A stretch of DNA of 64,000 nucleotides from Kalaharituber pfeilii (taxonomy: Eukaryota; Ascomycota; Pezizomycetes; Pezizales; Pezizaceae): positions 496,001 to 560,000 of the forward strand of contig WHUZ01000001.1 in the NCBI GenBank assembly GCA_015179045.1. Reading direction: 5' to 3'. Under the pieces are notes generated by a model, which saw nothing but the letters and a program-made list of their open reading frames with translations, was not told the origin of the DNA and searched no databases. Of the stretch, positions 1,286 to 63,008 are shown piece by piece. Numbering within the stretch: position 1 is the first letter of the stretch; each line of letters opens with the position of its first letter. The position numbers were made by a program, and so were the translations under genes.

Positions 1286-1340
1286 TTTTTTTTTTTTTTA
1301 TTTCACGTAACCCCGCTTGCAGCTGTTCGCCATGGCAGGG
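1286..1340 (-). mobile_element. F1 mini-retroposon, minus orientation
   Basis: A poly(T) run is followed by the reverse complement of the F1 tail. Read on the minus strand it begins CCCTGCCATGGCGAAC, continues to GCGGGGTTACGTGA and ends in poly(A). The flanks share an approximate duplication (GTATTATAT on the left, GCATTATAT on the right). The sequence is almost identical to the copies near 1930, 5515, 53286, 59318 and 62761. Confidence 0.75.
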
Positions 1341-1918
1341 CTGCATTATATGATAAACCGGAATAGTTTATATTCTTCGCCGACGGTGGGCAGACAACAG
1401 TCTTCATGAGGAAGGTTTGAAGTCTCATGTCGAACGGGTGGCAGTAATATCTGTATACTCTCCAGCTCTTATAAGTTCCTGAAGTTGTGAACTGCTATAA
1501 GTTACAAATTAAGAGAATCTGCTAAGTATATGATAATGTCTCAGAAACTGATGACGAGGAGAAAAGCAACGTTACGACCTACACTCATATCTGGTCGTAG
1601 CTTCTGGCCGGTACACGAGTTATGATAAAAAAAAAAGACCTACGCTCATACTAGGCTTGTACAGACGGCCCCTACACAGTGCATAAAATTGAACATGCTG
1701 AAATTAAACCTCCAACGTATCAACAACACCAGTCCCTTCATTTGCAGTGGAGTTGACTCTCTTTGACTCCAACAATCGCACTATATCTTCATGTCCGCTT
1801 TTGGCTGCCAAAGCTAGTGGTGGGCGAATATAGTTGGAGAGGGCCGGAATCGGATTGGCCCCTCGATCAAGTAGGAGTGTGACAAGTTCTTTCTGACCCG
1901 TAAATGCAGCTGCACCCA

Positions 1919-1997
1919 GGGCAGTCCCGCGCCCTGCCATGGCGAACAGCTGCAAGCGGGGTCACGTGATATATAAAAAAAAAAAAGGGCAGTCCCG
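1919..1997 (+). mobile_element. F1 mini-retroposon with 11-bp target duplication
   Basis: The insertion spans 1930-1986: 45 bp of F1 tail plus 12 A. It is flanked by perfect GGGCAGTCCCG duplications at 1919-1929 and 1987-1997. It splits an ankyrin repeat of the NLR relic; removing it and one duplication restores the YGTALGAAAF ankyrin signature. This is the cleanest small copy in the window. Confidence 0.92.
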
Positions 1998-2449
1998 TAC
2001 CAGCCACCCACAATATTGTCATCAGCCCCTCGATCAAGCAGAAGTGTAGCAATTGTCTTACGACCCATATATGCTGCAGTACCTAGAGCAGTGCCATAGT
2101 GGCCACCCAAAATATTATTATTGGCCCCTCGATCAAGCAGGAGTGTGACAAGTTCTTTTTTACCCATAACGGCAACTGCACCCAGGGCAGTTCCATAACA
2201 GCCACCCACGAGATTGACATCAGCGCCTGGTCAAGAAAGAGTGCAGCAATTTCCTTATATCCCCGATAGGCAGCTACACTCAAGGTGGTTCCGAACCAGC
2301 CACACACAATATTGACATCGGCCCCTCGATCAAGCAGGAGTGTGACAATTTCCTTCAGTTTGCAATATATCGCTATACTCAGGACAGTTCCATGCCTGCC
2401 AGCCACTGTGTTGATATAAACCCCTCGGTCCAACAGGAGAGTGTGTGAG

Positions 2450-3095
2450 GGGACTTGAGCCTGGGCCCTCGTATGCAATGAGCTCCTCGTCAGCTAGAAT
2501 TGTATGCACTGAGCAAGAGGAGGGCACGACGCTGACGACACGAGACGGAGGCTGAGTGTGAGGGGACTGGCTCAAGGCCGAGGGCACAGGACGAATGGCA
2601 CGAGGCGAGTTTGCACGAGGCAAATGGCACGAGGCAAATGGCACGAGGCAGCGTGAGAGATGTCTGTCTTGAAGTCTAATGCGAGAAAGAAAGGTCTAGG
2701 AGTTTCCCCCTCCTTAAATACCCTTCATCCCATTTCCCTCCTACCCGAACAGGTAGGACTCTACTTCCCAAAGAGGTAACCTCACATACTTCCCAAAGAG
2801 GTAACCTCACATACTTCCCAAAGAGGTAACCTCACATACTTCCCAAAGAGGTAACCTCACATACTTCCCAAAGAGGTAACCTCACATACTTCCCAAAGAG
2901 GTAACCTCACATACTTCCCAAAGAGGTAACCTCACACTGAGGCGGAGGCGGAGGGCACGAGGCAGCAAGCACGAGGCAGATGGCACGAGGCGGAGGCACG
3001 AAGCAAAGTAAGATCTGTCCAAGTCTATATCACAACACGAAAGAAAGTCAGGAGTCCCACCTCCTTGAAGAACCTTCTGCACCATCCCACCGTTC
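2450..3095. repeat. Complex satellite-like insert in the NLR relic
   Basis: This stretch separates the two ankyrin blocks. It contains short repeats based on GCACGAGGC (about 2590-2650 and 2950-3005) around the 25-bp tandem array. Two related, diverged segments of about 80 bp (near 2670-2755 and 3020-3095) suggest internal duplication. No coding content is recognised. Confidence 0.6.
2763..2937. repeat. 25-bp tandem repeat, seven copies
   Basis: Seven head-to-tail copies of a 25-bp unit begin at 2763, 2788, 2813, 2838, 2863, 2888 and 2913. Each starts ACTTCCCAAAGAGGTAACC. They are near-identical and have no spacers, so this is a minisatellite. A related CCAAGAGGTA motif occurs at 3572 and 3597. 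Confidence 0.95.
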
Positions 3096-3476
3096 GCCCT
3101 ACGGAAGGACCTAGGGAAGGTCAGACAATGGTTGGAGGCCGCGAACAAGGAATTGGGAAAGATATCGGGGATTCGCTGGCTGAGGAAGTGGACCACGCTG
3201 GTTGAGGAGGGGAAGAAAACCAGCTCGGCGGTTGTATACTTGGAAAAGGAGACGGATGTTGAGAGGGTGAGGCTCGGGGGACGTTGGCTCAGATCGGTCC
3301 TGTACGAGTCGGAGAGGGGACGGAAGTAGGAGATACCGGGACCGGGACTGCCACCGCATCATGGAGAAGTTTCGCGGGCACTACATGTAGTTAGGAGTAG
3401 ATAGTTTGGGGTTCGACTTCTTTTTTCGCTTTTAATAAAACCTCGCCATAGCCCTTTGGGCGGCATGCGAGTATTG

Positions 3477-3507
<31 letters not shown>

Positions 3508-3513
3508 CCGTTC
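3084..3513 (+). mobile_element. ORF1-only LINE-like element with F2 tail
   Basis: An insertion at 3096-3501 is flanked by 12-bp duplications ATCCCACCGTTC (3084-3095 and 3502-3513). It encodes in frame a short ORF1-like domain (KDLGKVRQWLEAANKELGK ... SSAVVYLEKE ... GRWLRSVLYESERG) that ends with a stop at 3329. A 3' untranslated part of about 120 bp follows, then the F2 hairpin tail (CTCGCCATAGCCC...GGGCGGCATGCGAG) and poly(A). The protein aligns by eye with the insertion at 52756-53352 and resembles the region just before the zinc knuckles in ORF1 of Tad-like fungal LINEs. No reverse transcriptase is present. Confidence 0.82.
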
Positions 3514-5507
3514 CGCCCACCGTTCCGGCACTCCCCCTTCCGGATGGCCTTCCTGCCACTACCTCAAGAGGTACGGGTGGCCTTCCTGCTACTGCCCCAA
3601 GAGGTAAACCATTTACATGGTAAGGCCTTCCATCACAGAGAGATGACTTCGTTATGCTCCCAAAATACCGCTACACCCAAGGCAGTTCTATACTCGCCAC
3701 CCACAGTGTTGATATCAGCCCCTCGATCCAGCAGTTGTTTCACGGTCCCTACTTCTCCTCTCATAGCTGCCAAATACAGTGAGGGTTCATGAGAATCGTT
3801 CCGTAGATTTAAGTTGACATCCTTCAAGGCCCACAGGCAGCTAACCAACTCTCCGAGGCCAAGTATTGCCACAGCGAAAATGGGCCGTAAGGGGGTTGAC
3901 TTTATTGACCTCTGAATGATCTTCATCTCAACAGTTTGGTAATAGGGATACTAGTCTTGAGCTCTTTGAACCTATTCCACCCATGTTACGTAAGCTTTAC
4001 TCGGTTGGTTCAAAGAACCTAAGAGCTGTGCAGTAACTTGAGTTCCCGTGGGTGCCCCAAAGAGGTCGCAGCCTTGTTGGTTAAGGGCGTAATTAAGGAT
4101 CGATAGGACTGGCAGTGTTTGAACCAGCACTCAGCGGAGTACTCATACAGAGTACACCAGCGCTTCTTACTATGCTGCACTGGGGAAATAGCAGCTTGCC
4201 CAGGATTCTGAAGCGTCCACAAACAAGCTTCAGCAACAAGAAGCTGGGCATCTAGAATACCCCATCCCGAATTCCTTGTTTCTAGATATTCTTGCACGGA
4301 CAAGTGTGCAAACCGAATGATGTCTAGGACATTATCTAAAACAAGTCATCCCTTACAAAAACTGAGCAGGACGTCAAGTTCAAGCGCTGACGTGGTCTCT
4401 GTGTCCTCTTTTGATTGGTTTATGGGCTGCATCGCGATTGAGTGAAGGTCTGCGGCTGCACACAATATGCTGGGTCTCATAGGTTTGCAGGAAACAAGCA
4501 TCCACTTGAGAGCGCGCTCAGCGATCTCAGGCATACTGCCTGGTTGGGATTCTATCGATGTTGATTTCGTGGTATACCTCTGTTAAAGTTTTTGGTAACT
4601 TTCCCAGCCGCTTACGAATATCTCGCTTACGAGAAAGATTACAGAGCTCCTGTAATTGATAAGCAACCCAGAGAAACCTATCGCTTTCGTAAGCATCTCT
4701 GAAAAATGACTGGTAAAATCATCCTTTCTCCCAGGATATTGGACTTTGGGTGAGGGATCTTGCCTGTTGTGGAAGGATAACTTAGATGCCATTAGCATCT
4801 CTCAGGAGCACATCCTTAATATCTGCTTTAAGGCTTGGTGGCACATTACCTCGGAGCGCCTTGATTCTAGTCTCCAACTCAGTTTGAACGTAATTTTTGA
4901 TATCTTCAGCATTGTCTCGGCCTCAATTAATACATGAGGAACATATTGCATGCGGTCTTCAATATCCAGGCTATGGCGGCTGGATACCAGGACTTTGACC
5001 AAAACCTTCGATTCCTTCATGATGGTGAAGAATGTGTGGAGGATGGAGCCTATCAAGTCTTGGGGGCATTCATCAAGAGCATCTAGGATAATGATTGGAT
5101 TCTGGTAGCAACAAGCCAATTGGGTGAGAAGGTTGATGGTTGTATCAAGTGGGAGATGCTCCCTAGCAAAAGGATCTTCCTGCTCCTTCTTGTAGGCTTC
5201 CTGTGCAATTGCACAGATTTTTCACTATCCGGACATGCTAGCTGCTTAACCAGGGCAAGTAAAATTTGCTGAATATCGCGACGGACAGCTTCGTCGCGCT
5301 TACAGTAGAAGTATGAGACTTTGTCCACTATTGGCTGGTGATGATCAACACTGGCAGAGCTGTATTATGCGGCGAAGCCTTTGTTAGCAGCTCACTTACG
5401 AAGAAAAGGACCGTGATACTCACACAAGCTTTGTCTTTCCAGCACCGGCTGAGTGATATAAGCAGTTATGTAACAGTTCTGTCTTCCGTAGATGATGACA
5501 AGGTCAA

Positions 5508-5558
5508 CTCACGAATCCCGCCCTGCCATGGCGAACAGCTGCAAGCGGGGTAACGTGA

Positions 5559-5597
<39 letters not shown>

Positions 5598-5602
5598 CAC
5601 GA
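5508..5602 (+). mobile_element. F1 mini-retroposon at an NLR splice site
   Basis: An F1 tail with about 35 A lies at 5515-5594, between CTCACGA duplications (5508-5514 and 5596-5602). On the coding (minus) strand the duplicated sequence contains the GTGAG of the intron donor next to the WLHGI codons, so the insertion copied the 5' splice site on both sides. Confidence 0.85.
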
Positions 5603-7429
5603 TACCGTGCAGCCATAACTTTTCTGACTGTATTGAATGTAGCCAGCTTTTAAATTCCCCTCTTCCGAAAAGCCACTGTCCAGTCCCTTTCACGCGGTCC
5701 TTTTTAGCAGTATCATGGTGACTTCGATAAGGGACCTTGGAGAACCATTCAAGGATTTTGATCCTCTCCGTTTCTAAAGCCCCAGAAATTATTATTCCGC
5801 ATTTAGTAAAGAGAGTTGCCATATATAGCAGACACAAAATACCTTCAATATTTTTGTAAATCGTAGTAACAGTAGTATCCACCCGGTCCAGAATAGTCTT
5901 AAAGCTTTCAAGAAGTGTCTTGAGACCTTTGATATGTTCTAGATAAAGCGGGATTTAGAGTGAATATACCAAGCTTATCAGGACTGTTTTCTACCTTTAT
6001 GGAAGTGTCTTGACTCCGATTGATCTGTGTTCAGTTCTAAATTAGCTGCAGAACGGTTGTATTGGGGCAAGTTTACAGCAATCCTCCACTCTGCCAGCTT
6101 CTGTATTCACAGTGGCTTCAGGTTCATTAAGTGCCTCAACTTTTCCCAAACAGCGCCTGGGTGGATTATACTGTTCCAAATTTGTTTTCCTGATGTAAAT
6201 GGTGGTTTCATATTAGCAATCACATAAACCTAGTGGGACGCATCACATACCTGCATTACTCATGAAACATTGTATGAAAATCGTCAACAGGCTCAGTTTT
6301 CCCATATAAGTTTATAAGGGCTTTGCGAAGGTTGCTTTTTGCATCCTTCGTCATGACAGAAGCCTCCTCAGTTGCTAGGTACAACTGCTCATATATGGTA
6401 CCCCTGCTGATGAGCATAGTAATGCGTTCCATTCCGATTACTGCTGCTTCCATAGACTCTTGCCTGGCAACAATGATCTAGTAGGCGATTATGTTAGTAC
6501 TCATGCAATAGCCTAATCACCGCAGGAGACAGGAGGAAACTGTGTGGAAGTTTACTCACCTGCAAGATAACCTGACTCCCGCCCAAGGCAATGCGGCATG
6601 CACCGGGTCATGTTGTACCACTATATCTCCAATGTTCTTGAACTTATCAATCCAGCAGACTATTGCATGCACCTTTTCACGAATGTTTATTTCCATACTT
6701 CCAAACTTGAATTTCCAACTTTTCCCCTCTGCTTTCTCTTGTGCCTTCTTTGCCATATTCAGGATTTCATCCAAGAACCCTTCTTGATTGGATTTTGCAC
6801 TGATGTTTATTCCGCAATCCGCCAGGATCTTTTTGTTTTCCTCTGGAAGCTTTTTATGCGCTTCCACCCACAAGTTAGAAATTTCATTCTGTCGCTGCTC
6901 GGCTGGCACTGCGGGAGAGTCATTATGGCGGGGCACATGGGGAGTGGAATGCCGGTTCTCTTGTTGCACATCAGAGTTTTGTCCTTCTTCCGTAGGCTCT
7001 ATTTGCGGCGAAATTGAATCAGGTACAAGGAGGATGTCTCCTTCTCCATCAGGCTCTACTTGTGCTGGTGGGGTCTGTTCCGGCGCGGAATCAACGGCTT
7101 TCTTCGTGCCGTGCTCATCGGCACCCGCTTTCCCTGGGAGGCTTTGAGATGGCTGTTGCCCGAGCGCGGAGGAACTTGGAGCCCCAAGGCTGCGGCTTGG
7201 GGAACAGCTTCGGCTACTGTAACTCGTTCGAATGGCCGCAGAAATATATCCCTTTTTCGTCTTGCTTCGGGCGATTGTTGGCTGCTTTCCTTATTCTTCC
7301 AGAAGGGCATGGTTATTTGCTGTAGTGTGTGGTTTGTATGGGAGTTTTCCACAGAAGGTTGGCTTTAATACGTCAATCCAAATTGCTTTTCGTATCGCGA
7401 TCAGAGGTACGCTTTGGAATCCGCGCCCA

Positions 7430-7980
7430 AATTATCCAGACTTTCTTCGCAGACCATATTATAAAACTGGTCCTTCTGGAGACTTCATGTACCCACAGCT
7501 CCCTTGATATTCAGAATGAAGATGCCATATGTAAGATACAAGGAATGGAAAAACAGTAAACTACAGTATCCGATAAAACGAAAACAATAGAAAAAATCGA
7601 ACAAAGGGAAAACACATGGGATTAATCAATCTACTAACGAGTAATTTTCATTAGACAGCTATGTGAGCGCTGTTGAATGTGCGGTTGAACGTGAGAGCGC
7701 GAGATGCTGTTGCAGCAGCTGGAGGGGAGCGATTGAGAGGCGGTGGATTCAAAAGAAGGTGGAGTTCTTTTCGAACCATCCTATACCTTCGTAAAGTGGC
7801 AGGTCTATTGTCTCTAGTGAATGGGTGACAACAAGCTCAACCGAGAGGCATAGAATTGAGGGCCCCGGTTCGATTCTAAGCTGGGGAAGAGGACTATCCA
7901 GCATCTTTCTGAGATATGGACTGTAGTAATGCTCCGGCTAGAAAATAATTCTGGTGGAACCAGGCCGATCTGCTCTCATA
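7430..7980 (+). repeat. Dispersed direct repeat, left copy
   Basis: This segment upstream of the NLR relic resembles 10060-10680 in the same orientation. Shared blocks include CATGTACCC-CAGCTCC, ATTCAGAATGAAGATGC or a close variant, and GAGGGCCCC-GTTCGATTC followed by AAGCTGGGGAAG and TCCAGCATCTTTCT. It may be a duplicated NLR 5' region or an unrecognised repeat. The GGTTCGATTC block resembles a tRNA B box, but no tRNA cloverleaf was found. Confidence 0.6.
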
Positions 7981-8686
7981 CACAGAAGACAACCTGTTTA
8001 AAAATTTGGTTCCTACTTTTTAGTACGATTGCTTGCTGCAAGATGTTGCTACCAGGGTATTATGACATTGACCCTAGACTGGATCGGGTGTCCAATTCGC
8101 AGTAGGAAGGTGTGAATGCCATTGCTAGCGATGTCCATTTGTCCGGTCATCAAGACCACATACCCTGCGCACATTAGATTTACAACGCCATTATATCCCT
8201 CTCTCCTTACCAAGTCCCTCACTACCTTCACTCCTTCAATCCAATCCTCTCCCCCCGCTTCCTGAATCCACTCCCCTCATCACCATCTCTTCCCCTGCAA
8301 TCATCAATGTCTCCCCTCTGTTTCCTTCACCATATCTAGATATCCCTTCCTTAACAACTTCCTCGACAGGTTCCTCCTTCATTCTGCCGCTCCCGCACCG
8401 ACCGAGCTAAACACAGTTGGGTTACGATGCTTGTTAATCTAGATTATTGCCTTCCCGCAATAATGTCAAATTTAGGTACTCAGGTGCCCATGTTGACAAT
8501 GAGGGCAGAGTTAATTGCCGCGCGATCATCGATTTCAAGCAGGTTGTAAGACATGATAGGGAAGGCGCCGATGGCTACGGTGATACTTGCAGAGATGTCC
8601 TTTGATGACGGCATCAGTAATGTGGTTGATAAGTGCGGGTGAATATCGGGATTGGCTGGATGCTATTATAGCTCTGCTTGGAGGCC

Positions 8687-10680: not shown

Positions 10681-12600
10681 TTGTTCAAGGGTTGCAATGG
10701 GACTTTGACAGTTTATCCCGTCCAGGCTGCCATGTCGGCCGGTCGATTCAGCAGACCGTCATATTACTGAATCGATCACCCCGTCAAGGCATTGCTGAGT
10801 CGTCCCGTTATATGTCATATTGGTGTATAGATGGAACTATCAAGAGAATTCGCACAATTCGATAATATTAGTGGACAGGTCGACCCACTGGTGTATCTGC
10901 CGGAACATAGATTAAATTGCAGCAATAAAAGTTATTTCTGGTTGATACTAGGGCGGCAATTGTAAAACATTTCTTTTCTATTTGAGAAACTTGTCTAATA
11001 CGGTTTATTATTATACAGGATTTGAATACACAAGTCCAAGATCGACTGGATCGGAGATGACAGCAATAGCTTAAGGCCTTCCAGTTCCCTTCATCCCCTT
11101 TGCTCATTGCATACCAGCATAGAAATATTGGTGCCTCTGTCTCATCACTAAAATCTTGCAGTGGTGGTATCAGCAAGCGGAAATGGCGGAGCCCCAAACA
11201 ACGGCCATGATACTCTACAATCTTGTTCCAGAAAACATTTTCCCTATATAATTCCACTCATTGTCAGCAAGGAAAAGTATGGTGAAGTAAGAGGCTGGTG
11301 AAGTGGAGAATTATGCCAGAAGTATGTCAGCTTTATCAGGGGAGGGATTGGAGTTTAGGAAGCCATTGGGGGAAGGGAGGAAAGGCGTAATATACAAGGG
11401 CTGGCAGGTAGTGCGAGAGGCAAGGCGAGAGGTAGGACGAATTGCAAGCTAGTTTTGTGAACATGTACTTAAACCGTAGGCCCCGAACTGTAGCTATAGA
11501 ACCCGCCGCTGAAACGCCGCTGGTGATATTGTACCCCTTTGCAAGATCATAGTCAGGCAGTTGTATACCTTTTAAAACATGACATTAATTCTCATTAGCA
11601 TTAAAACTGCAGCTGTATATTCACGAGACTAGCAGCTGTAGTCAGAACAATCAACTACACCTAATAAAAATCGGTTCAAAGAACTACATAGTACACATAT
11701 TGCAGCGCACGCTTCACCGCCAATAAAAACAATATTAATCACCGGGCGCCCATGATCACTTCTGTCGCGGTGACTCCATGATGAAATAAATAAGAAAGGG
11801 CGGCATGCGGGCTAGTGATAAAAAAAAAAAAAAAAAAAAAAAATTGCTTTTGTGTTAGAAATATCGATCTGCATTGTTCTTAGTTTATTTCTTAGTAGTG
11901 GCAGCAAAGAGTTCTGCGAGCATTTTGGAGCAGGACACGTTAATCAGGTGGGAGATTGCCAGGGTGGAGCAATTGAAGGCGCGGGAGAACTGGAAGCTCA
12001 CCTCATCGTTGCCCACTCGTTCCTGCGTAGTGGGGGGAAGGGTATTCGGTTTCGTGCTAATTGATGGGTGGGAGAAGATATCGATTGTCTGGAGATCTGG
12101 AGGGGCAACGGTAGCGGTGATGGTGTAGATAGGGTATGTTATCAATCGGTTGGTGGGAAACAAACACTTGCTTCAACTCTAGATGCTGTTTCGCAGCGGC
12201 CACCTCTATAGTGTAAGTCTGGTTGTATTACCGTCCCGCAGAGCCCCACGAACGTTAATATTAACCCTTAAGTAAAATAGATTTTCTTAAACTACTGTAA
12301 AAGATGCCTTCTAGAAAAGGAAGGGCAGCCCCCCACCGCGGCGCTGTACTCTTCCCCAGGAGCACGCACCTGTTTTTTACTGTATTCACGACTAAAAATA
12401 TGAATGGGCTTCATGTTGTCACCTTTTAAATTCTCTGTAACAGGGCAACGTGGAGATAACTAGAATTTATGTGCAACAGTAAAATCAGGTTACCCTGAGA
12501 AACGCAATGCAAGCTTACCACAGACTGCGAAATTGTTAAATTCAATCACCACCCAACCACCTTTCGTAACCTCTGTTCTTCTGTAATATTATCACCTCAA
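10681..12600. other. Intergenic, no confident gene
   Basis: Short open frames on the minus strand (10868-11257 and 11885-12163) show no family signature or splice context that I can recognise. One F2 tail with a long poly(A) lies at about 11798-11843. Confidence 0.45.
11798..11843 (+). mobile_element. F2 mini-retroposon
   Basis: The 3' half of the F2 tail (GGGCGGCATGCGGGCTAGTGAT) is followed by about 23 A. It is a strongly 5'-truncated copy. No clear target duplication was found. Confidence 0.65.
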
Positions 12601-12610
12601 TTCTTTTCTT

Positions 12611-12656
12611 TTTTTTTTAAATATCATTACTCGTATGCCGTCCTATGGACTATGAA
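12611..12656 (-). mobile_element. F2 mini-retroposon, minus orientation
   Basis: A T-rich run is followed by ATATCATTACTCGTATGCCG and CCTATGGACTATG. This is the reverse complement of a diverged F2 tail, including both arms of its hairpin. No clear target duplication was found. Confidence 0.65.
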
Positions 12657-12840
12657 GAGATTAAGTACAAGGAGATAAGTACAAGGAAATAAAGGCAAAA
12701 TCAAGCACAAACTCAATCCATAAACAAGGCATTTGCCATCTCTCCATCTACCCCAGCATCTTCACTACAGGGTCCCTTTCGCCCTCTCTGCTCGCCGGGA
12801 GCCTATATATCGCCTCCAATCACCTCAAATTGCATCTACC

Positions 12841-52068: not shown

Positions 52069-52172
52069 GAAATGGTGTTTTTTTTTATTTATTATTATTA
52101 TTATTATTATTTTTCTTTTCTACATCATCACTCGCATGCCGCCCTGTGGGCTATGGAGAGAGAGGAATGGTG
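52069..52172 (-). mobile_element. F2 mini-retroposon in the ankyrin gene
   Basis: Antisense F2 copy at 52078-52163: an A/T-rich tail (T-run, then TTA repeats) followed by ACTCGCATGCCGCCCTGTGG and GCTATGG. It is flanked by GAAATGGTG (52069-52077) and GGAATGGTG (52164-52172), a 9-bp duplication with one mismatch. Removal fuses the flanking ankyrin codons in frame. Confidence 0.88.
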
Positions 52173-52243
52173 AAATATTTGTTGGCTCAAGGCGCAAGAA
52201 CAGATGTTCTCCATCTCAACATAACACCATTTGTGCTAAGTGT

Positions 52244-52345
52244 TAGGCATAGGTTATTTTTATTTTTAATTTTTTTTATTTTTTATTTTTTTATATTATT
52301 CATCGCGTGCCGCCCTGTGGGCTATGGCGATGTAGGCATGGGTTA
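52244..52345 (-). mobile_element. Second F2 mini-retroposon in the ankyrin gene
   Basis: Antisense F2 copy at 52257-52332 with a T-rich tail and CGCGTGCCGCCCTGTGGGC. It is flanked by 13-bp duplications TAGGCATAGGTTA and TAGGCATGGGTTA with one mismatch. It lies about 90 bp from the previous copy, in the same orientation. Confidence 0.88.
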
Positions 52346-52741
52346 GTGGAGATCGCTCATTGTTAATCGAGAGTGGGGCCGCTCGCACAGTCCAAGAGAG
52401 CGAAGGGAACAAGAGAGCATACGTTTGAATCATACCAAATACGAGACTACTTTACACCTAGCAGCCCACAATGGTCAAGAAGCTATGTTAAAGTTTTACT
52501 AGACCAAGGGCTTGGCGTCAATATACAGTACAGGAATGGTGGTGTGCTACAGGAAGCAGCCTCTTGTGGATATGAGGCTATTGTAAAGCTACTAATAGAG
52601 CGTGGTGCTGAAGTAAATGCACAGGGAGGGACATATGGATCCGCTCGTCAAGCCGCCACCTCTGCATACATGGGAGCCGAATCTGTAGTCAAACTGCTGT
52701 TGGATGCTGGAGCAGAGGTCAACAGAATATGGAACTGCCTT

Positions 52742-53320
52742 AGAAGCCGCCACTTAAAGGAAAGGACACTCCCGCAATCCGGTCGTGCAATCGTAGTACA
52801 TGGAATTGCGGTGACAAAGAAACTCGGGAAAGTAAGAGATTGGATGGAGAATGCGAACCCATGGATGGGAAAGATTGTTGCGGCAAGATGGTTGGTGAAG
52901 AAAGAGAGGAGGGAGGGAAAGAAGGCTAGCTCGGTTGTTATTTACCTGGAGGGGGAGGTGGAATCGGATAGCCAAACACCAGCGAAGGTAAGGTTGTTGG
53001 GCAAGTGGTACGATTCGTGCCTGTATGACTGGGATAGAATTACAAAGGTGGGTAGAAAGGGGAAGGGGAGGGATGTAGAGGAGATGGACATGACTGCTTG
53101 ATTTTCTGGGGGGATATTTGGGTATTCGTGCTTGATTATTCTCTTGGGGGATTGCGCTTTCGCTTTGTGTTTCCTCTACATCACTGAAGTCGTGGTATTG
53201 CTATGTGCTTTTACAGGGGACGATTTTGTAGGTAGTTGCACAGGTACCTGTCTCCGGGCCATAAGGACTTCGGTCTAGGGATCCTGCCATGACGAACAGC
53301 TGCAAGCGGGGTTACGTGAA

Positions 53321-53355
<35 letters not shown>

Positions 53356-53728: not shown

Positions 53729-53767
53729 TCTCGCCATAGCCCATAAGGCGGCATGCGAGTAATGATA

Positions 53768-53801
<34 letters not shown>

Positions 53802-53804
53802 AAA
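53729..53804 (+). mobile_element. F2 tail with long A-rich tract
   Basis: CTCGCCATAGCCCATAAGGC and GGCATGCGAGTAATGATATT are followed by about 33 A-rich bases. It is the best-conserved F2 hairpin: CTCGC pairs with GCGAG and GCC with GGC. The 5' limit of the insertion and a target duplication were not identified. Confidence 0.75.
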
Positions 53805-54660
53805 GGATCGCCTTCACGAGTTTTACTTGCATCATGAACTGCCCGAGGCCAATTCCACGACAGATAGCCCAACTAAAGCCACTGCTGGCGTTGCATCGCT
53901 AAAGCATGTCAAAAGTTTCCATTCGGCGTCCGCGTGCTTTATAAAAGTCACATACTAACCACTAGCAGAAGTGTAGGATATCGCAAGAACTGCGAACTTG
54001 CTATTTCAGTATATTTCAGTAGTTATGCGGGGCGGCACGGACAAACTACATGTCGGATTACGCATATTGGAACTCGAAAGCATGTCCCTATTTTTGGATC
54101 GTAGGTGATGACTCTTTGTTCTTGGTTCTCGCTTTTTTCCGTTTTCAATACTAGCGAAGGTTGTAGGCCATGAGTTTTGTATGTAGCTTCCGTCACGCAC
54201 TTTAGCCGTGCGCCAGCAGGCCTACAAACAGGAAATAATCCCTTGAAAATAAATAAATAAATATATATATCAGAGCTATTTCAGCTGGTTACCGTGCTAC
54301 TAGCTAATATTAGCATCGCGCGAGTTTAATACAATGCCCTAGGGGCTTGGTACGAGACTATACAATACCCATAGAATAGGAGCTGGATAAAGAGGACATG
54401 CAACTCTCGAAATGTCAGCCGGTAGCTTCATATGGCCTATCCGTAACGGCAATCCTTATTGAAAATATATTTGGATTCGAACTGAGTTAGTTCCAGGCTG
54501 GTTAGCCGGAGCAGGTTCGAGTCCGCCACCCCCGGCTATTTTTTATTTTTATTTTTTTAAATTATGGTTTGATGCATACTAGTATAAAGTATAAAAGAGG
54601 TGCCAATGCGTTCGCGAGAAGAATACTGTACTACCTGGTTACGAGACTACTGTACTACAG

Positions 54661-54725
54661 TAAAGTACATAGGGCACGCGAGTAATGATATAAAAAAAAA
54701 AAAAAAAAAAAAAGTACATAGGCTA
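54661..54725 (+). mobile_element. Ultra-short F2 copy with target duplication
   Basis: Only about 18 bp of F2 (GCACGCGAGTAATGATAT) plus about 22 A is inserted between AAGTACATAGG (left, ending about 54671) and an identical right copy (about 54713-54723). It is one of the most 5'-truncated copies. A partial F1-like tail (GCGCGGTTACGTGACC plus A-run) follows at about 54736-54758. Confidence 0.75.
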
Positions 54726-54759
54726 GCAGCGTGTATGCGCGGTTACGTGACCAAAAAAA

Positions 54760-56028
54760 GGATTACTGTACAAGTACTACGAGAGGGTTATGCAACCGGT
54801 AACGTGCAACTACTGATGGCTTTTGCATCTTGTAACGGACATACGAGAGTATAGCAGGATTTTGCGGCAACATAGGTAAATGTATGTTGTGCGACGTCGA
54901 CATCAAGGTCTATTCTTGTAAATACAGTGTTCCCTTGCTATACCGGCTATACATGAGGTGAGTAAGCATGCGAAGGCGTATTTACAATGCTTACAGCCTA
55001 GAAAATTGCTGGCCGATATCGAGAAGACAATAGAGCTTTTTCAGGAGCATGGGGCTGAGACGGGAGCATTGAGGGTTTGAAAGCTCAGGCCACTGTTTAT
55101 ACTGCATACCACAAGGCCTGTCAGCAACTGTGGATTGTTTTCGTGCCCAGACCCTACGCTTTTCTCGTACCTGTGCAAGTGTGCTTTCTTGACAATTATT
55201 TAGTCTCCTACCAAGCCCCTAGGGCACTCTACGAGCGCAGCGAGGCTCTCTCTGTCTCTGTCTTTCTTTTACTCTTTTTCTCTATCTTCCACTGTCTCTC
55301 GTTACATCAATATGCTGTACACCTGTAGTCTTGTAACCAGTTAAGTACAGCTGTACAATCCCGCTGTCTTGAGACTTAAAATATCTATTTATCTACCAGT
55401 CTTTGATGAAATGTTCTATGAGCCGTTTATTCACTTGTCCTAGTGCATATGACCTCCATAGTCAACTAGCCACGTAGGCCCGGCCGGATTGTATCGTGAG
55501 CGGCGGACAGTGGCAACTAAGTTGCCTTATGAGTAGAACTGTACTAAAGTTCGTGTCAGCGGAGGAAAGCTGGCTGAGTTGGGCTTGGTTCCAAATTAAG
55601 ACCGGGTGGGCGTACCTATGAAGAAACAAGCAAATTTGTGGACATACGCGGTTAGTAGGAATACGGGCGTTGTATTCGGTGCAGAGATTGTTCTCGTAGC
55701 AATACTAGTAGTTACCAGTTTTTCCTATTTTGACGATGAGTAAGCTCAACTCTCTGTTAACTGCCAATGTAACATTAAAGCTCAGAATGGTCAGGAAGTA
55801 TAAATCATGTTTAGAGAGAATAATAGTACGATGCTTGAGAAGAATAAAACAACAGCGAACAACGAGATGAGGCAATGATGGTGGCGAACTATGTATACGA
55901 AGACCAGACACCTACGTTGAGGCGAGTATCAAATCAGCCTTTGCGCTCATATCAACTCATTGTACCTTGTTACGTGGTGTAGAGTATTGGAGGGTTGGTG
56001 CTGGCGTAGATCCACATCATGGGGGTAA

Positions 56029-56063
<35 letters not shown>

Positions 56064-57949
56064 TGCTGCGGTTTGCCATAATGCATAATCCGTCTCATGC
56101 AGGATACTTGACGCGATTCTTACAGATTTGAGTCGAGAAAATTCGTTTGGAGAACACAAATTATTCACAGCTAATATATATTGTGTTTTCCCAATGCTGC
56201 AGCTTGAAATTTTCTAAAGGGAGTTTCGGAAAGAAATGTTTAATAATACATAGCATCTTATCGATTCGCCTATTTAGCATAATAGTTATAGTGTTGGGTT
56301 TGTGGGTTTAAATGGATGCTAAGGACATGATATAGGGTTAGAAAGTGTTCTCGTGCCCAGACTAAGTTGCCACATTACTATACTTGAAATTTTGTTTACC
56401 TCTTCAGAATATTTGTTTATTTGCATGTTTATTTACTCATATACTCTAACCAAAGCAGTTTCATGCTTCAAATATTTTGTGAATCTTCATTCATACATGT
56501 GTACTTAGTATGATTCTCTACAATTTACTATAAAGGAGTAATTCACTAGAATAGGGTTTTCGCTGAAGAGAAAGTATTTCGCTAAAGAGTATTTTTTTTT
56601 TGTTACTACTGTATAGCAGAGGACTTTTCGCTTGGAAGAGGGTTACAGTGTAAGGAATTTTCATTCAAGACAGACTTTTTGCTGACAAAGGAAGTGTTAT
56701 TTATTTGTTTTTTCTAGCAGTTGTCCGCATTCTTAACGCCAGTTTGGTTGGGAACTATAGAGTACGCGTGTAGTGGGTATGTAGGCACTGTAGTGCGTAG
56801 TGCTTTGTACAGAGAAAAAAATTATGAACCATGATGCTACTGAGCAGCCCGGACCAGTGGTGACTGAATCATTATTACTCCGTACAAGTGGCCTAGCACA
56901 TATATAAAAGTCATCGGCAAGTGGTAATAATTAATGTACTTTAGACTTAACTTTTTAAAGTAATTTTTGCTTACTAAGCCATATTTTTACCTAATTTGTA
57001 TTAGTAGTAAGTAACTCGATTAGGGGTCCACCACCTAAAACTACCTCTCTTTAACTTTGAATAACTTTTTCAGAAAAACTTTTAAAATTGGAAACGTAGT
57101 ATATATTGATTCTTCACTCAATTTTCTTCTTATCTATATTTTTACAATTTTTGTTGCGTCAGTGATTGGCGTCGAAATCTAGGTGCCCCACTCAAGGAGT
57201 CGGCAACCAGAGTACGAAATGGTGTCAGTCTGGGCAGGGAAAAAATCAAAGCGGCACTAGTTCATTTAAGGCAGTAACTACCAGATATGGTCGACATCCT
57301 AGACTCCAAATTTGCCATATGATTACTACTAGTACCAGCCCCCATTTGACCCGCTTTCAGGTGTTCAATTGAGGGCATTCATTATTACATATCTCTTGTG
57401 TCCATCAATTTATGGGCACAACCTCTATCAAGAAATATCCTCTCCATATAGGCTTGTACCAGGTATAACTAGCCGCAAAAGGAGATCAGTGCTCTTAATG
57501 CTTAAACTTGCAATCAAATGCCTACGCGACTATTTGCGTTTGGATCGGATGGCAACCTGCGTGACAGTCATCGTTTAAAGGCGGTGGAGCTATGGTTAGT
57601 TACTAGTATATGTAATGAGAAAATGGACTACGGTTGGGGGCTCACAAGCAGGTAGGAACTGTGCTGATGATGTACGGTATTGATCAACTTAGGGTCAGGT
57701 AGTCGATATTATTGCGTGTTTTCAAGGTGTAATGAAGGAAGGCAGTATGCAAATTGTTAATCTCACAACCCCACAGTCGAAGAACTGTGTGAGGCACCTC
57801 TGTTTCTCCAGAGACAGTTCTTACCACAATCCCTGCTTCATCTGTGCATAGTGTATAGCTTTCCTACTCTGTTGCCCTCAGCTGATGGTGTTGAAAAGGT
57901 AGGCCATTTCAAATCATACATGTTCTGCTTCCGCACTCTCGACTTTTAG
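54760..57949. other. Transposon-rich desert, no gene recognised
   Basis: AT-rich sequence without coding signatures. Contains a poly(A) tract of about 28 bp at 56035-56063, which may be a further truncated retroposon, and two copies of an 18-bp motif, TGTTCTCGTGCCCAGACT at 56346 and a variant near 55136. Confidence 0.5.
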
Positions 57950-58238
57950 GTAGTGAGCGGCACGAGCTAGCTCGAGCCTAGATTGATTATATATATAATA
58001 TTGACAAACTAAACTAAACTAAGCTAAATTTTCATCTTTCTCACTACTATCAGCTAAATTGAGTTGTTGGTAGGTCAGAATGAGCTCCAAGTCTCTAATT
58101 ATTACTATATTAGGTATTTACAGTTTATGAAACCTTGCACTGGCTAAGCATTTTAGCGAGCTGGCAAGAAAAACACTAGCATGATCTTGGCTCGTTTGAG
58201 TTCGAGCTGGCTCGGCTCGTGCCGCTCACTACTTTTAG
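57942..58238. mobile_element. hAT-like MITE
   Basis: A non-coding element of 281 bp (57950-58230) is flanked by perfect 8-bp duplications ACTTTTAG (57942-57949 and 58231-58238). The terminal inverted repeats share AGTGAGCGGCACGAGC. An 8-bp duplication with AGTG-type termini is the hallmark of hAT elements. The interior contains AAACTA-type repeats and no transposase, so it would be non-autonomous. Confidence 0.87.
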
Positions 58239-58845
58239 GACATTCCTCAATTGTTCATCCACGGTTAAACAGATGCTGAACTCAGCACAAACTCCCTAGG
58301 AGGCTTTTTCGACTAGTGATCGCCATCATTGGCACATTTAGAATTTCCAATGTTTATATAGCAACTGCTTGGTAGTTGCAGAATATTTCCAAAAGCATAT
58401 GGAAGTAGCCAATGCAGAATGTCCTCTTGGACAACGCCAGCCCCCAACGGTATTATACACATATGCAGGGTAACAGCACTTCAGTGACAATTATGCCAGG
58501 AAATGCCAGTTTTTTTAATCTTAACAGATCAATTGTGTTGAGAGTGAGAAGGTGAGCATCATAAAATTGAGCTGTAGTTGCATTCTTAAGCACGAAGACA
58601 ATGTCGACACAAAAATTCAAGGAGGTTTGCTTAGGTGTGTGTAGTTACCACTAATGATGGTGTCAAGGTGAGCTTCCCAAAGTCAGTAACCACGTTCTCT
58701 TTCAAGTCGCGATGCGGGTTTTGCTAAATATCGAGGAACACTTCTCAATTCCTTCATTGACGATGGTATGTTCAGTAGGGCTGTTCTCGTGCCCAGACTC
58801 ACAGTAGGACAAGGATCTGGCCAGGATCATGTAATGGTCCATCTC

Positions 58846-59060
58846 TGGTTAAATGAGAAGTGACATACAGTGACTTGCAGTAACTTCAGTTGAGATCAAT
58901 TTTTATTGCGAGTTACCGCTACGTCAAAACGCGGCTGAAATGACCTAGGAAGCGACATGCAGGTAAAGCCCATTAGTGGGCTACAACAAAAGAGGTACAG
59001 GGATCACACGACAATCTAGTTCAAGACCACAGCTGAAGTACAGTGTGATAACTCCAGCTG
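58846..59060 (+). repeat. Direct repeat, left copy
   Basis: Similar to 59441-59645 in the same orientation. Shared blocks include GGTTAAAT-AGA, TTCAATTTTTATTGCG or a close variant, GAAATGA, and ACAGCTGAAGTAC followed by CAGCTGGAAA. This is probably a local duplication of a decayed element. The right copy holds a nested insertion at its start. Confidence 0.7.
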
Positions 59061-59249
59061 GAAAAGCGCAACCGCTCCTCCTACTAAAGCAGCTTTATTT
59101 CCAGTACTCAAGTGTCCTCACCAAGGTTTATTCTCTTCGGCTTGATTTAGCTCGTGATCTATTGTGGTGCTCGCTGTGTTCAGAAAGTATGCAGCTTCCG
59201 AATACTTTCTGAACCAGCGAGTACAGAGGGGCAAGGATTGCCCACTCCC

Positions 59250-59277
59250 GGTTAAATCAGAATTTTTTTTTTTTTTA

Positions 59278-59315
<38 letters not shown>

Positions 59316-59452
59316 GGCCCTGCCTTGGCGAACAGCTGCACGCGGGGTCATGTGATATAAAAAAAAAAATTATTATTATTATTTTTTTATATATATATTT
59401 TTATATTTATTTTTTATTTTTTATTTTTTATTTTTTTTTTGGTTAAATCAGA
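59250..59452. mobile_element. T-rich insertion with nested F1 copy
   Basis: An A/T-rich insertion of about 179 bp (59262-59440) is bounded by perfect 12-bp duplications GGTTAAATCAGA (59250-59261 and 59441-59452). Inside it, a plus-strand F1 copy (59318-59368, CCCTGCCTTGGCGAACAGCT to poly(A)) is flanked by ATTATTATT on both sides, consistent with a second insertion. The outer element starts with a poly(T), as expected for an antisense poly(A) retroposon. Confidence 0.78.
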
Positions 59453-59875
59453 GGTGACTTGCAGTGACTTGGAAGTAACTTCAACTGAAATTCAATTTTT
59501 ATTGCGGGCTAGGTCAAAATGCGGTTGAAATGATCTTGAAGCAAAATGTAGCTGAGGCCATAAGTGGGCTAAAACAGAATAGTACAAATGGCCACGTGTG
59601 ATTCGAGACTACAGCTGAAGTACGTAATCTCAGCTGGAAATCAGTTTCTCTCCTCGATGTCATCATCAGTGTCCTCAGAGTCCTCAGGTGATCGAGAAAT
59701 ACTGGGACTTGAAGTAGTAGTAGATGAAGCACTAGAGATAGTAGCAGTAACTTCGTCTGAGGCGTCAGGTACGACAGAAGACCCTGTGGCTTAAGTTTTG
59801 CTGTGGAACCAGTTCTCCGATTTGAGTAGTGCTCTATGCACTTTGCGACGCTTTCTGCTTCGTAGGCCGTTAACA

Positions 59876-60367
59876 CTACTTCGGAGGCTGTATCCAGGCA
59901 GTTTCATACGGCGGGTCCAGATCCATTGGGTCCTCGACCGGGATATGTTCCCCGTAGATCGTTGGCGACTCAGAAGTCAGGCCATGTGCAAGAGCCTCAC
60001 CAGTTGAAACAACTGGCCAGCTACCAGTCATATATGAAACGCCTGTGTGTATGAGATGCGGGTGGAACTCCGGCGCCTGCGGGCGTCCAGAAGGCGAATA
60101 TAAGGCGCCGCCCCACGCCCTTGGGACTCGGAAAACAGGGATAGGTGACTTTGTAGGGGTTTGTACAGGGCTGTCAGGATATGCTTCATCTTCTTCATCT
60201 TGGAGGCTGTTGGTGCTGGTAGGTGTGAAGTCGGAGTAGACAGGGGAGAGGGTGCCGAGGGCGCCGAAGTCGAAGCATAAAGGCTTAATGATAGCTGGTC
60301 TTCGGCTGCGTGGGGGGGGAGTGTGGGGTTCCTGAGGTGGACGGGAGGAGTGCGTTGAGCCACTCAT
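59876..60367 (-). CDS. Hypothetical proline-rich protein
   Basis: A single open frame of 163 codons, MSGSTHSSRPPQEPHTPPPR onwards. It is rich in Pro, Ser and Thr, with ALGTLSPVYSDFTPTSTNSL and SPTIYGEHIPVEDPMDLDPP. There is no signal peptide, membrane segment or recognisable domain. It lies in a transposon-rich area and could be a lineage-specific gene or a chance frame. Confidence 0.45.
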   Translation of the reverse strand: MSGSTHSSRPPQEPHTPPPRSRRPAIIKPLCFDFGALGTLSPVYSDFTPTSTNSLQDEEDEAYPDSPVQTPTKSPIPVFRVPRAWGGALYSPSGRPQAPEFHPHLIHTGVSYMTGSWPVVSTGEALAHGLTSESPTIYGEHIPVEDPMDLDPPYETAWIQPPK

Positions 60368-61156
60368 CTTGGTTCTAGGATGTTCTATTATTCCTGACTA
60401 ATACGGTTTGTGGTTTACACTCTCTGTGGTTAGACTGCCTCATATAGGTGTTAAGGGGGGACGCCCGGCCAAGGGAGGGTGCGGCCATGACACTACCTAA
60501 GTACGGCAAACAGCATGGCCGACATGGCCGGAGAGTTATGATGTCCAAAAGCAGGTGAAAGGGGTCAAAGGAAGTAGATGTGGGGGTAGAAACTTTATTG
60601 AGAGTAACCTCTGAACAAGCTATGAGGGCCCGGTTGCTAAACTTAAAGTGCTCCATATAGATAAGTACTTGTATCATCTACACGACAGGTTAACGTGGAA
60701 GCCTAGGGATTCACTGGCTCCGGGAAGATAAGCACCGGCTTGGTAACATTCTCTGTATGCCACCATGTTACATGTAATTGTGCCGACCATTCGTAACAAC
60801 GTTCCAGTGGCCACTGGCCTGGGCTACTCAATGGAACGCTGGTTCGTGATCACACACTAGTACAACGCATTGACCTTTTTGTTCTGCGCACAGAACTACA
60901 ACAGAATGTTGGTTTGTTGGTGGCTGTTGAAATACTAGAAGGTTCGAAATTGTAATTGTCTAAATCATTTGTTTATTTTTTGTTTATTTACTCAAGTATC
61001 TAAACTTGATATTTTTCCATGGTGTCAGTATTTTGAATGTATTCTACATATATCGCATTCTGTTCCATACACTTCTCCAGTATACAACGCCAAGCCTATC
61101 TTATTTACCTAAACTGGTAATTACTTTTCAGCCTCATTCCTTAACAATCTTTCCCT
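60368..61156. other. Intergenic, no gene recognised
   Basis: Upstream region of the proline-rich frame. No repeat or coding structure is recognised. Confidence 0.45.
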
Positions 61157-61580
61157 ATGGAGCCTTTTACACCCGAAATTCGCCATCAATTCGAGCTATA
61201 TATTCAATCTCGGGACTATACAAACAGATATCGAATGGAACCTCAGAAGTTACGAGAAATTCGAATCTTCTGTCATGATCCAGAATGGCCCGTATCTTCA
61301 ACAGCTGAGAATAATGTTAAAACTCTTGCCAAGGTAAGTATAACCTATAATGAGATTTTTTAATAAGATATTAACAAATTAGAACTTTTTCATTAATGAG
61401 GACGGAGTTTTAATGCGCAAAGCAAACCCTCCCCAAAATGAATACCATCGTGAGGTTATCACAGAAGATCGAGCATTTGACATTATTCAAGATGTTCATT
61501 GCAATCTTTTAGCTCATGCTGGTAAAACTAAAACTTATTGGCATATTAATAATCATTACTATGGTATTAATAAAGATGAG
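61157..61580 (+). pseudogene. Integrase-like transposon gene fragment
   Basis: Two exons (61157-61333 and 61383-61580) join in frame: MEPFTPEIRHQFELYIQSRD ... VKTLAK, then NFFINEDGVLMRKANPPQNE and IQDVHCNLLAHAGKTKTYWH, ending YYGINKDEV. The His-containing HAGKTKTYW...YYGI segment resembles the zinc-binding N-terminal domain of retroviral-type integrases, as in Gypsy elements and GINGER-type DNA transposons. A GTATGT donor follows at 61581, but the next sequence is a minisatellite and no catalytic DDE domain was found. I infer a truncated element. Confidence 0.6.
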
Positions 61581-61597
61581 GTATGTATTTTTTTGAT

Positions 61598-61868
61598 ATC
61601 TTTTATGAAGCTGTTTTTTTTTTTCGCCGGAGGGGTCTATGAAGCTGTTTTTCCTGTCGCCGGAGGGGGTCATTCATGAAGCTGTATTTTTTTTTTTTTG
61701 CCCTGTCGCCGGAGGAGTCCTTGATGAAGCTGATGTTTCCTGTCGCTGGGGGTCCTTGATGAAGCTGTTTTTTCCTGTCACCGGAGGGGTCCTTGCTGCT
61801 GCTGTTTTTTTTTTTTATCGCCGGAGACGGTCCTTAATAAAACTGTTTTTTCCTGTCGCTGGAGGGGA
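61598..61868 (+). repeat. Minisatellite, about seven copies of a ~37-bp unit
   Basis: Imperfect tandem units built on ATGAAGCTGTTTTTTCCTGT followed by CGCCGGAGGGGTCCTTG, varying mostly in T-run length. It lies immediately after the donor site of the integrase-like fragment and may have expanded within its intron. Confidence 0.85.
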
Positions 61869-62246
61869 AATACGAGCTTATGTTACTAATGCTAGACTAC
61901 TTTTTAATCATTATAGTTACATGATATTCTTAAGTATACTTCTTTCTCTGACTGAAGAGCAATACGATATACACATATACAATGCATACAACAGCAATAG
62001 CATCACTGTTGTAATAGAGGTAGTAAGTATAGGAAGTTACCTTCTATCAGACCAGACAGATATTTCACTAGCGATGCTTCTGTGCATCTTATATAGCAAT
62101 AATTGTATGACAGTAATGCTTATATCTATCACTTATCACATGCACATGACATCACATAAGCAATATTATTCACTACTCCACAGTACTACAATTGTAGTAA
62201 TTTCATAATGGCTACCATATATTATTACATTAGCTGCATAATTTCG

Positions 62247-62430
62247 TGAATGAGTGAGTATTACTAGGCAAGTATCTTTTTTGCCTAGTAGATTGTAATT
62301 CTCTATGCTTACCACTCCCGTTACTGAGTGTTATATGTGCCACACTGAGGACTAGCGAGTATTACTAGTCAAGTATCGTTTAGCCTGGTAGGCGGTAACT
62401 CTCTAAATTTACCACCTCCGTTATACCATC
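62247..62430 (+). repeat. Two-copy tandem repeat (~110-bp period)
   Basis: GAGTATTACTAG-CAAGTATC, GCCT-GTAG and TTACCAC-CCGTTA occur twice, starting near 62253 and 62362. A third, partial inverted match lies near 63040-63080. No coding content. Confidence 0.6.
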
Positions 62431-62446
62431 TAATTATAATTCAGAG

Positions 62447-63008
62447 TACAGTCAGACCTTGCTATAACGAACACGTAAAATTTGGCTCATGGATTTCGTT
62501 ATAGAAAATTGCGACAAATTAGTCATGCAACCTTGGCAGCTGAGTTCGGACTCCTCAACAGCTATTGCACACATTTCGTATTGACTTACTAGCATAGGAA
62601 ATTACCAAATTAAGAAATATTCGAGATAATAAAATAAAGCATAAGTGAATCTTGAACTAATAGAAATCTGTAACGGACTGCCTTCGGTCCCGACTAGCAC
62701 TCAGTAATTAGAACAGTTAAGGATAAGAGTAGCTTAGTGGATCGCCAGGGGGGTTTCTATGCCCTGCCATGGCGAACAGCTGCAAGAGGGGTAACGTGAC
62801 CAAAAAAAAAAAAAAGGGGGGGGGTTTCTATAAATTTCATTTGCCACTTTTCGTTATAGCAAGAACAATTTGTATGTAGACAGAAATAACTTCCCCTAAA
62901 TTTTTTTTCGTTTCGTTATTTGGTGGGATTTCGTTATAGCAAGGGCAGAATAGGTGGAGAGGGAAATCGCCGAGGGCAGTGCGTTCATAATAGCAAGGTC
63001 TGACTGTA
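62447..63008. mobile_element. Pogo/Fot1-like MITE carrying an F1 insertion
   Basis: Terminal inverted repeats share CAGTCAGACCTTGCTAT at 62449 and (reverse complement) the end at 63006, with TA duplications at 62447-62448 and 63007-63008. The TIR resembles those of fungal pogo/Fot1 Tc1-mariner elements. The 558-bp interior is non-coding and contains further internal TTATAGCAAG copies. It is interrupted by a younger F1 retroposon. Confidence 0.87.
62748..62831 (+). mobile_element. F1 mini-retroposon nested in the MITE
   Basis: The F1 tail with about 14 A (62761-62815) is flanked by 13-bp duplications GGGGGGTTTCTAT (62748-62760 and about 62819-62831, the right copy with extra G). It is inserted inside the pogo-like MITE, so F1 was active after that element arrived. 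Confidence 0.9.

Follow-up and report, generated by a model that had tools for sequence, protein, structure and literature searches.

Scattered over a 64,000-nucleotide stretch of the Kalaharituber pfeilii genome (contig WHUZ01000001.1, positions 496,001 to 560,000; hereafter the window) are short adenine-tailed units of two families, F1 and F2, which are confirmed here as dispersed insertions with A-tails and target-site duplications (TSDs). A short F1 unit consists of the last 39 nt of a long interspersed nuclear element (LINE), predicted to fold into a hairpin (H1), followed by A's, and its 5' end is the foot of that hairpin, a position that is both fixed and templated. The explanation that we favour, with a probability of about 0.6, is target-primed reverse transcription (TPRT) of LINE RNA with the copied length set by RNA structure, so that hairpin-only short units would be left behind. 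How the 5' end of a LINE copy is determined is a long-standing question.

The genome searched is a 78.0-Mb assembly of 360 contigs, in which the window is G000:C1:496001-560000. The genome-wide motif search that the sequence-only reading of this DNA had proposed gave 1871 matches to the 16-mer of the F1 head (CCCTGCCATGGCGAAC) and 779 to a 24-mer of F2 (ATAGCCCANAGGGCGGCATGCGAG), while the reversed motifs used as controls gave 0 in both cases. Copies shorter than the head fall outside these motif counts.

Ten loci with reverse transcriptase (RT) domain RVT_1 hits of 744-750 bases, the length found in the LINE at L089, out of 150 scored of 1113 candidates, were used to look for parent elements, a set that leaves out at least two further LINE-like hits (675 and 684 bases). 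F1-type tails end nine of these ten LINE-type loci (L089, L090-L094 and L096-L098), at the expected distance in the eight besides L089; at the tenth, L095, no F1-type tail was found. In the LINE at L089 (C26:10200-16500), the first open reading frame (ORF1) contains zinc knuckles (CCHC) and stays open for 598 codons, counted from the border of the retrieved sequence. ORF2 comprises 1248 codons and includes endonuclease, RVT_1 and RNase H, and the 3' untranslated region (3'UTR) closes with an F1-type tail followed by poly(A). Residues 500-1248 of ORF2 have their best named match in Kalaharituber pfeilii itself (73% identity over 56% of the query). In domain content, the set of endonuclease, RVT_1 and RNase H with a CCHC ORF1 fits the Tad1 clade, for which such a set is typical. 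Furthermore, the L090 tail matches the common short units in its GGGG linker and GCGAAC head and is one base off a short sequence seen twice, and a short copy in L072 of the tail of a sister LINE lineage has exactly the sequence of the L097 and L098 tails. Longer copies of F1 and F2 alike contain an ORF1-like frame whose stop lies shortly upstream of the tail. Since the tails end LINE loci and ORF1-bearing copies, F1 is, on sequence grounds, the 3' tail of resident autonomous LINEs and of their ORF1-bearing relatives, and F2 is the 3' tail, built on the same plan, of a longer element that has a frame like ORF1; no F2-tailed autonomous LINE was found among the fetched loci. Therefore, F1 and F2 are not retroposon families in their own right, as had been proposed from the window.

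The starting point of the copies is more uniform in F1 than would be the case for ordinary random 5' truncation. Among the 42 F1-type copies with a TSD, 25 (one of them of a third type, F3) start within -5 to +3 of the CCC at the hairpin foot, and three have their start 36-39 nt farther upstream, where the 5' foot of another hairpin (H3) lies, which makes them about 76 nt long. The other 14 start elsewhere; they include real long elements, such as that of the window with its 14-bp TSD, and scoring artefacts (L003, L007, L072 and L086), and a further part of them are probably false distant matches. In the fetched sample, 41 of 62 copies with a full head are short, with G (39) or A (2) as first base and a median A-run of 20. 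Genome-wide, the 1871 F1 heads divide into 448 preceded by GGGN, which are longer copies that kept the parental linker, 1133 HG, 65 HA and 225 others (H being any base but G), and the 593 tails of the sister LINE (CCCTGCCATGGCCAMGTGC) into 335 GGGN, 212 HA, 2 HG and 44 others. In F1 and in the sister tail alike, the last class accounts for 16-17% of the copies that lack GGGN; because H means not G, copies whose target base before the unit is G fall into it. The first base of the short copies is thus that of the parent, G under a GGGG linker and A under a GGGA linker, and these counts indicate that most linker-less copies start at one position with the parent's own first base. The longer copies also become fewer at the structures, since 178 places have the GGGG linker with the next hairpin upstream (H2) and 61 have the stretch before H3.

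It may be objected that random truncation only looks uniform because the search motif demands the head, and copies shorter than the hairpin, which this motif misses, do exist (window 54674 and 11798; L060 and L079). However, the parental GGGN is absent in 258 of 593 sister-tail copies and in 1423 of 1871 F1 heads, and among these the single expected base is present in 212 (H before A) and 1198 (H before G or A), respectively, which makes this explanation very improbable. The parent-specific first base argues against it as well as against a G derived from the RNA cap; the latter is ruled out, since short copies of the sister LINE carry A (212) and not G (2). A simple stall of RT at the foot of H2 was also rejected, as it would leave AGGGG or AGGGA before CCC, where the short copies keep one base. 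As the starts fall mostly on one letter, the copies would record where copying stopped. The situation is different in F2: 15 of the 51 F2-type copies with a TSD start at the hairpin foot (one of these, window 1605, being a chance match) and 36 elsewhere, so that F2 has no fixed length and hairpin-only copies form one peak of a broad range.

That these copies were inserted, and not duplicated with their surroundings, is indicated by the TSDs. The latter were searched for 153 A-tailed tail matches (75 F1-type and 78 F2-type) from the window and loci L001-L098, after removal of 101 tail matches that had no A-run, 8 at the edge of a locus and 18 that overlapped; a few of the 153, for instance those at window 1605 and 53580, are chance tail matches. 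With a minimum score of 9 and a search within 1500 nt upstream, a TSD was found for 93 of the 153, against 4, 4, 14, 10 and 6 of 150-153 in controls whose downstream flanks were swapped among copies. Moreover, three of five alignments to candidate empty sites could be used (L067/L047 is gapped at the junction and L085/L013 further on). A short F2 copy in L057 (TSD AAGAGAACAATTA) lies within a repeat, and L050, L075 and L076 match its joined flanks at 98%. The F1 copy at 1931 in the window has as neighbour in its array an empty unit (2120-2257, 84%) with a single TSD-like stretch. Lastly, the F1 copy of L052 sits inside an F2 element, for which L051 is empty at 83%. Segmental or tandem duplication, or an assembly artefact, would account for the two pairs of segmental duplicates with common flanks (L006/L008 and L007/L086), but flanks differ among the copies compared, and together with the TSDs and the empty sites this leaves such an origin a negligible chance; for the copies that have TSDs it is already contradicted. 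Descent of all copies from segmental duplication thus fails, and the independent retroposition that the sequence-only reading had put forward is upheld by A-tails, TSDs, empty sites and different flanks.

Each tail follows the same plan: the H1 hairpin, a few unpaired nucleotides and poly(A). The structure counts leave out 22 of the 153 records, which have no recognisable head (13 F1 and 9 F2). The predicted F2 hairpin has a CUCGC/GCGAG stem and an inner GCCC/GGGC stem and covaries among 54 distinct sequences, with four of nine pairs changed on both sides and 19 double-change cells against 3.8 +- 1.6 in shuffled data. The F1 hairpin is predicted to consist of a 7-bp stem (GCCCUGC/GCGGGGU) and an inner 4-bp stem (z -1.98). 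The tails therefore appear to share a conserved 3'-terminal stem-loop, for F2 by covariation and for F1 by fold only. In long F1 copies (22 distinct sequences counted), two more hairpins, H3 and H2, are predicted upstream, as well as a pseudoknot in which the H3 loop (GYCUC) pairs with the linker (GGGRC) just 5' of the F1 hairpin. This H3-H2-pseudoknot arrangement has 27 double-change cells against 11.1 +- 2.9 in shuffled data and 0 to 7 in slid controls. In the pseudoknot helix, 98.2% of the cells are paired and a U-A pair becomes C-G in six of the 22 sequences, at the position where the short units begin, which makes the pseudoknot probable in the LINE RNA. The region upstream of the hairpin has predicted folding energies of -12.8 and -12.1 kcal/mol in F1 (structured) against -1.5 and -3.4 in F2 (unstructured).

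From these data, the following course of events can be proposed. The LINE RT would grip H1 and the poly(A), and it may recognise the hairpin itself, by analogy with the stringent-type LINEs described in the available text of PMC4176376. It would then nick the target and prime on the poly(A), as A-tails and TSDs suggest. H1 would be copied and most F1 events would stop at its 5' foot; the position is observed, and stalling is the cause that we infer. The last base to be copied would lie one nucleotide ahead of the GGG whose partner in the probable pseudoknot is the H3 loop. Some cDNAs would pass this point and end at the H3 5' foot (about 76 nt; three copies) or beyond it, and joining of the cDNA to the target would leave the TSD behind. 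In this way, RNA structure would set the length of the short units, which would be LINE copies reduced to the hairpin. A stop at the H3/linker pseudoknot is favoured because of this distance of one nucleotide between the last copied base and GGG and because F2, which is unstructured upstream, has fewer ends at the foot.

Several results weigh against this model. F2 starts at the foot (up to 15 of 51) despite having no stable upstream structure, which stalling upstream leaves unexplained, and a stalled RT is expected to stop somewhat raggedly, whereas the F1 end is nearly one position. Within F1, no covariation of H1 was seen among 39 sequences, and the upstream region folds no better than shuffles (z -0.35 and 0.18). 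Two of the five measures of the pseudoknot test were not above shuffles: there are six pairs with double change against 4.6 in shuffled data (52 of 500), and 11 pair types against 12.8. Moreover, the outer two H3 pairs fail in 10-11 of the 22 sequences, and the double change in the pseudoknot may be one event, because it separates LINE lineages.

Some of these difficulties would vanish if the template, and not the copying, were shortened. Degradation of the LINE RNA would proceed from the 5' end until the last 39 nt and the A-tail were left, shielded by the hairpin and perhaps by bound RT (or 76 nt, where the foot of H3 and the pseudoknot is the limit), and the fragment would then be copied to its end by TPRT. 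Sharp ends suit such end-to-end copying, both favoured starts (H1 and H3) are 5' feet of structures, as for a blocked 5'-to-3' exonuclease, and the F2 starts at the foot without upstream structure are accounted for. However, exonucleases usually halt a few nucleotides ahead of a structure, and F1 starts on the first paired base; the share of starts at the foot also differs between F1 and F2. Template trimming is therefore a possible explanation, which we do not favour.

A third explanation would be a true minimal short interspersed nuclear element (SINE), in which the 39-nt unit is itself transcribed and is copied in trans from its own source copies. The number of HG units, 1133 against the 178 places where H2 and the corresponding linker of the parent occur, agrees with this, as do several subfamily variants that are each common to many short copies. 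In addition, the commonest short F1 sequence was not found in exact form in any fetched full LINE, and an A-box-like stretch is present (one mismatch in F1 and none in F2, to a loose consensus). On the other side, a 76-nt copy (L073) contains the commonest short sequence as well, LINEs contain a sister short sequence, the B box was not found (five mismatches at best), and neither tRNA nor Rfam matches were found in the window. A SINE with its own polymerase III (Pol III) promoter was consequently rejected, despite the A-box-like stretch. The first base, which tracks each parent LINE (A or G), points to LINE transcripts and not to a separate SINE lineage; since it changes with the LINE lineage and a complete promoter was not seen, a separate SINE is unlikely, and the least likely of stalling, trimming and SINE.

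To return to the favoured model, the sequence-only reading had proposed TPRT in trans. TPRT itself is retained, as an inference, whereas for the part in trans there is an equally good account of the data, 5' truncation in cis. The minimal size of the non-A part was borne out, in that hairpin-only copies exist, with the restriction that F2 has no fixed length and that some F2 tails end longer elements. We also put forward, tentatively, that a 39-nt hairpin with poly(A), on a trimmed RNA or on an RNA of its own, could alone suffice for TPRT by the LINE enzyme; the units would then be among the smallest retroposons, and H3, pseudoknot and H2 would act as a length switch shedding more than 1000 hairpin-only copies.

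In the window, six F1 and seven F2 tails were found where they had been reported. The short F1 unit at 1286-1341 (minus strand) consists of G, the CCCTGCC hairpin, TTACGTGA and an A-tail, and no TSD scoring at least 9 was found for it. The other F1 tails are on the plus strand. The unit at 1931-1986, inside a degenerate tandem array, is flanked by GGGCAGTCCCG (1919-1929/1987-1997) and that at 62761-62815 by GGGGGGTTTCTAT (62748-62760/62819-62831); these TSDs of 11 and 13 bp proved exact on re-reading. At 5520-5594, a unit with a 35-nt A-run has no TSD scoring at least 9; the 7-bp repeat reported there (CTCACGA, 5508-5514/5596-5602) is present, but it is weak and ends 5 nt short of the unit. 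The unit at 59317-59369 lies within a TTA microsatellite, where a TSD is not decidable. The sixth tail, ending at 53353, belongs to a 5'-truncated long F1 element of about 600 bp (52756-53353) with 3'UTR, upstream hairpins, F1 tail and a 31-nt A-run; its exact TSD of 13-14 bp (GAAGCCGCCACTT, 52743-52755/53354-53366) fixes the start at 52756, and its C-terminal ORF1-like frame has a stop ending at 53101. A single open frame spans 52367-53101, made of ankyrin repeats and, from the insertion at 52756, of the ORF1-like end of this LINE-type element.

Four of the F2 tails are on the plus strand. The tail at 3442-3502, with an A-run and the upstream 3'UTR, may be the end of a 400-nt element starting near 3096, as a candidate 12-bp TSD (ATCCCACCGTTC, 3084-3095/3502-3513) in a locally repetitive motif suggests. 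The fragment at 11798-11843 starts inside the hairpin (GGGCGGCATGCGGG) and ends in A24, and the hairpin tail at 53730-53804 has an A-tail and the upstream 3'UTR, with no TSD scoring at least 9 found. The fourth, at 54674-54713, is a fragment of about 20 nt with an A-run, inserted at an F3 tail; its TSD (GTACATAGG, 54665-54673/54714-54722), reported as about 11 bp, is sure over 9 bp and reaches 11 only with ambiguous A's, and the automatic TSD search missed it. On the minus strand, the tail at 12609-12659 shows a compensatory inner-stem change (GTCC/GGAC) and, with a candidate 10-bp TSD (TTGAGGTGAT) 175 nt upstream, may end a longer element. The A-rich tail of the copy at 52078-52160 has decayed to AAT repeats and no TSD was found (scored in L044). 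The short unit at 52262-52331 has a variant hairpin (ATCGC/GCGAT) and a TSD (TAACCYATGCCTA, 52333-52345/52244-52256) of 13 bp, the length that had been reported, with one mismatch. The tail fragment at 54714-54759 (plus strand), previously taken for F1, has the same hairpin plan but a different sequence. It belongs to the third tail family, F3 (CATAGGCTGGTAGCCTGTATGC...GGGTTACGTGA), which also occurs in L002, L006, L042, L049 and L077. At about 61580-61850, the window contains imperfect GAAGCTGTTTTT..CCTGTCGCCGGAGG repeats with T-runs, unlike F1 and F2.

Some F1 units outside the window deviate from the common plan. For instance, that at L072 1608-1645 (minus strand) has poly(T) in place of poly(A) after GGGGTCACG, with the TSD-like GGGTTGGC on both sides. 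Another, at L052 1105-1142 (minus strand), has no A-tail, ends in GGGGTCA and lies between an imperfect direct repeat of about 30 bp. The units at L084 309-346 (minus strand) and L081 from 342 have altered 3' parts and TSD-like flanks; in one the stem runs directly into poly(A) and in one the hairpin is partly lost. An odd head followed by unrelated sequence in L002, considered as a LINE 5' end, looks like a broken or partial copy. Among the matches listed for contig G000:C1, 25 F1 heads lie in the first 0.6 Mb against five in the other 2.4 Mb, which suggests repeat-rich and repeat-poor compartments.

In this one genome, 1133 + 65 + 212 copies counted by motif end at a single base, the position of which relative to a predicted RNA structure can be given, and the sister lineages provide a built-in control (A versus G). 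Hence, stalling, template trimming and separate transcription can be separated by experiment. These copies also hint at the minimal template that a LINE enzyme may need. Units of 39 bp are likely below the length limits of usual repeat finders, which calls for caution in annotation.

The short units have features of more than one known class. Like 5'-truncated LINE copies made by TPRT, they carry the 3' end of a resident LINE (for F1, nine of ten RT loci), an A-tail and TSDs of variable sequence (93 of 153); the variable 5' ends that are usual in this class, though not strictly defining, are replaced in F1 by one dominant position, F2 being variable with a peak. Like SINEs, they have a 3' tail in common with a partner LINE, but the 39 nt contain an A-box-like stretch and no B box, short of an internal Pol III promoter, and no tRNA, 5S or 7SL body was found by the tRNA and Rfam searches of the window. 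HAL1-type elements carry only ORF1, and the long F1 and F2 elements with an ORF1-like frame shortly before the tail resemble them. There are trypanosome retroposons that bear Pr77, and R2 has a 5' ribozyme like that of hepatitis delta virus (HDV). As in these, a structured RNA end would define the unit, and the order of H3, pseudoknot and H2 is that of HDV P1, P2 and P4. Unlike in these, the structure is at the 3' end; an HDV-like ribozyme at the 5' edge was rejected, since reading of the H3 loop revealed no P3, and none of the three Rfam hits (up to E 10) in L089 5400-5650 is a ribozyme.

A search of open-licence PMC text found no fixed 39-nt or hairpin-only class of LINE copies. A 3' stem-loop common to LINE and SINE, very short LINE fragments and preferred template-switch sites are already known. 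Ylli of Yarrowia lipolytica resembles the LINEs described here in having poly(A) and numerous short copies that are truncated at the 5' end (104 fragments, from 30 bp to 1 kb in length); the available part of PMC5014426 differs in that TSDs were not identified, and it mentions no fixed 5' end. In Magnaporthe, the 3' end of the MGL LINE is mimicked by Mg-SINE and there are preferred template-switch positions, according to the available text of PMC2104539. The fungal LINE 3' end on non-autonomous units and the preferred template positions are thus common to both systems. However, the MINEs of that fungus are chimeras of WEIRD RNA and MGL, of 230-5461 nt, and that text mentions no 39-nt class. 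Another close parallel is offered by the stringent-type LINE/SINE pairs (ZfL2-1/2, UnaL2 and a Tad1-clade pair cited with them), in which, in the accessible part of PMC4176376, ORF2 binds the common 3' stem-loop. Here too, autonomous element and non-autonomous units have a 3'-terminal stem-loop in common, and its binding would be by analogy with these pairs, whereas the short units of Kalaharituber pfeilii consist of the tail alone, without a SINE body, followed by poly(A).

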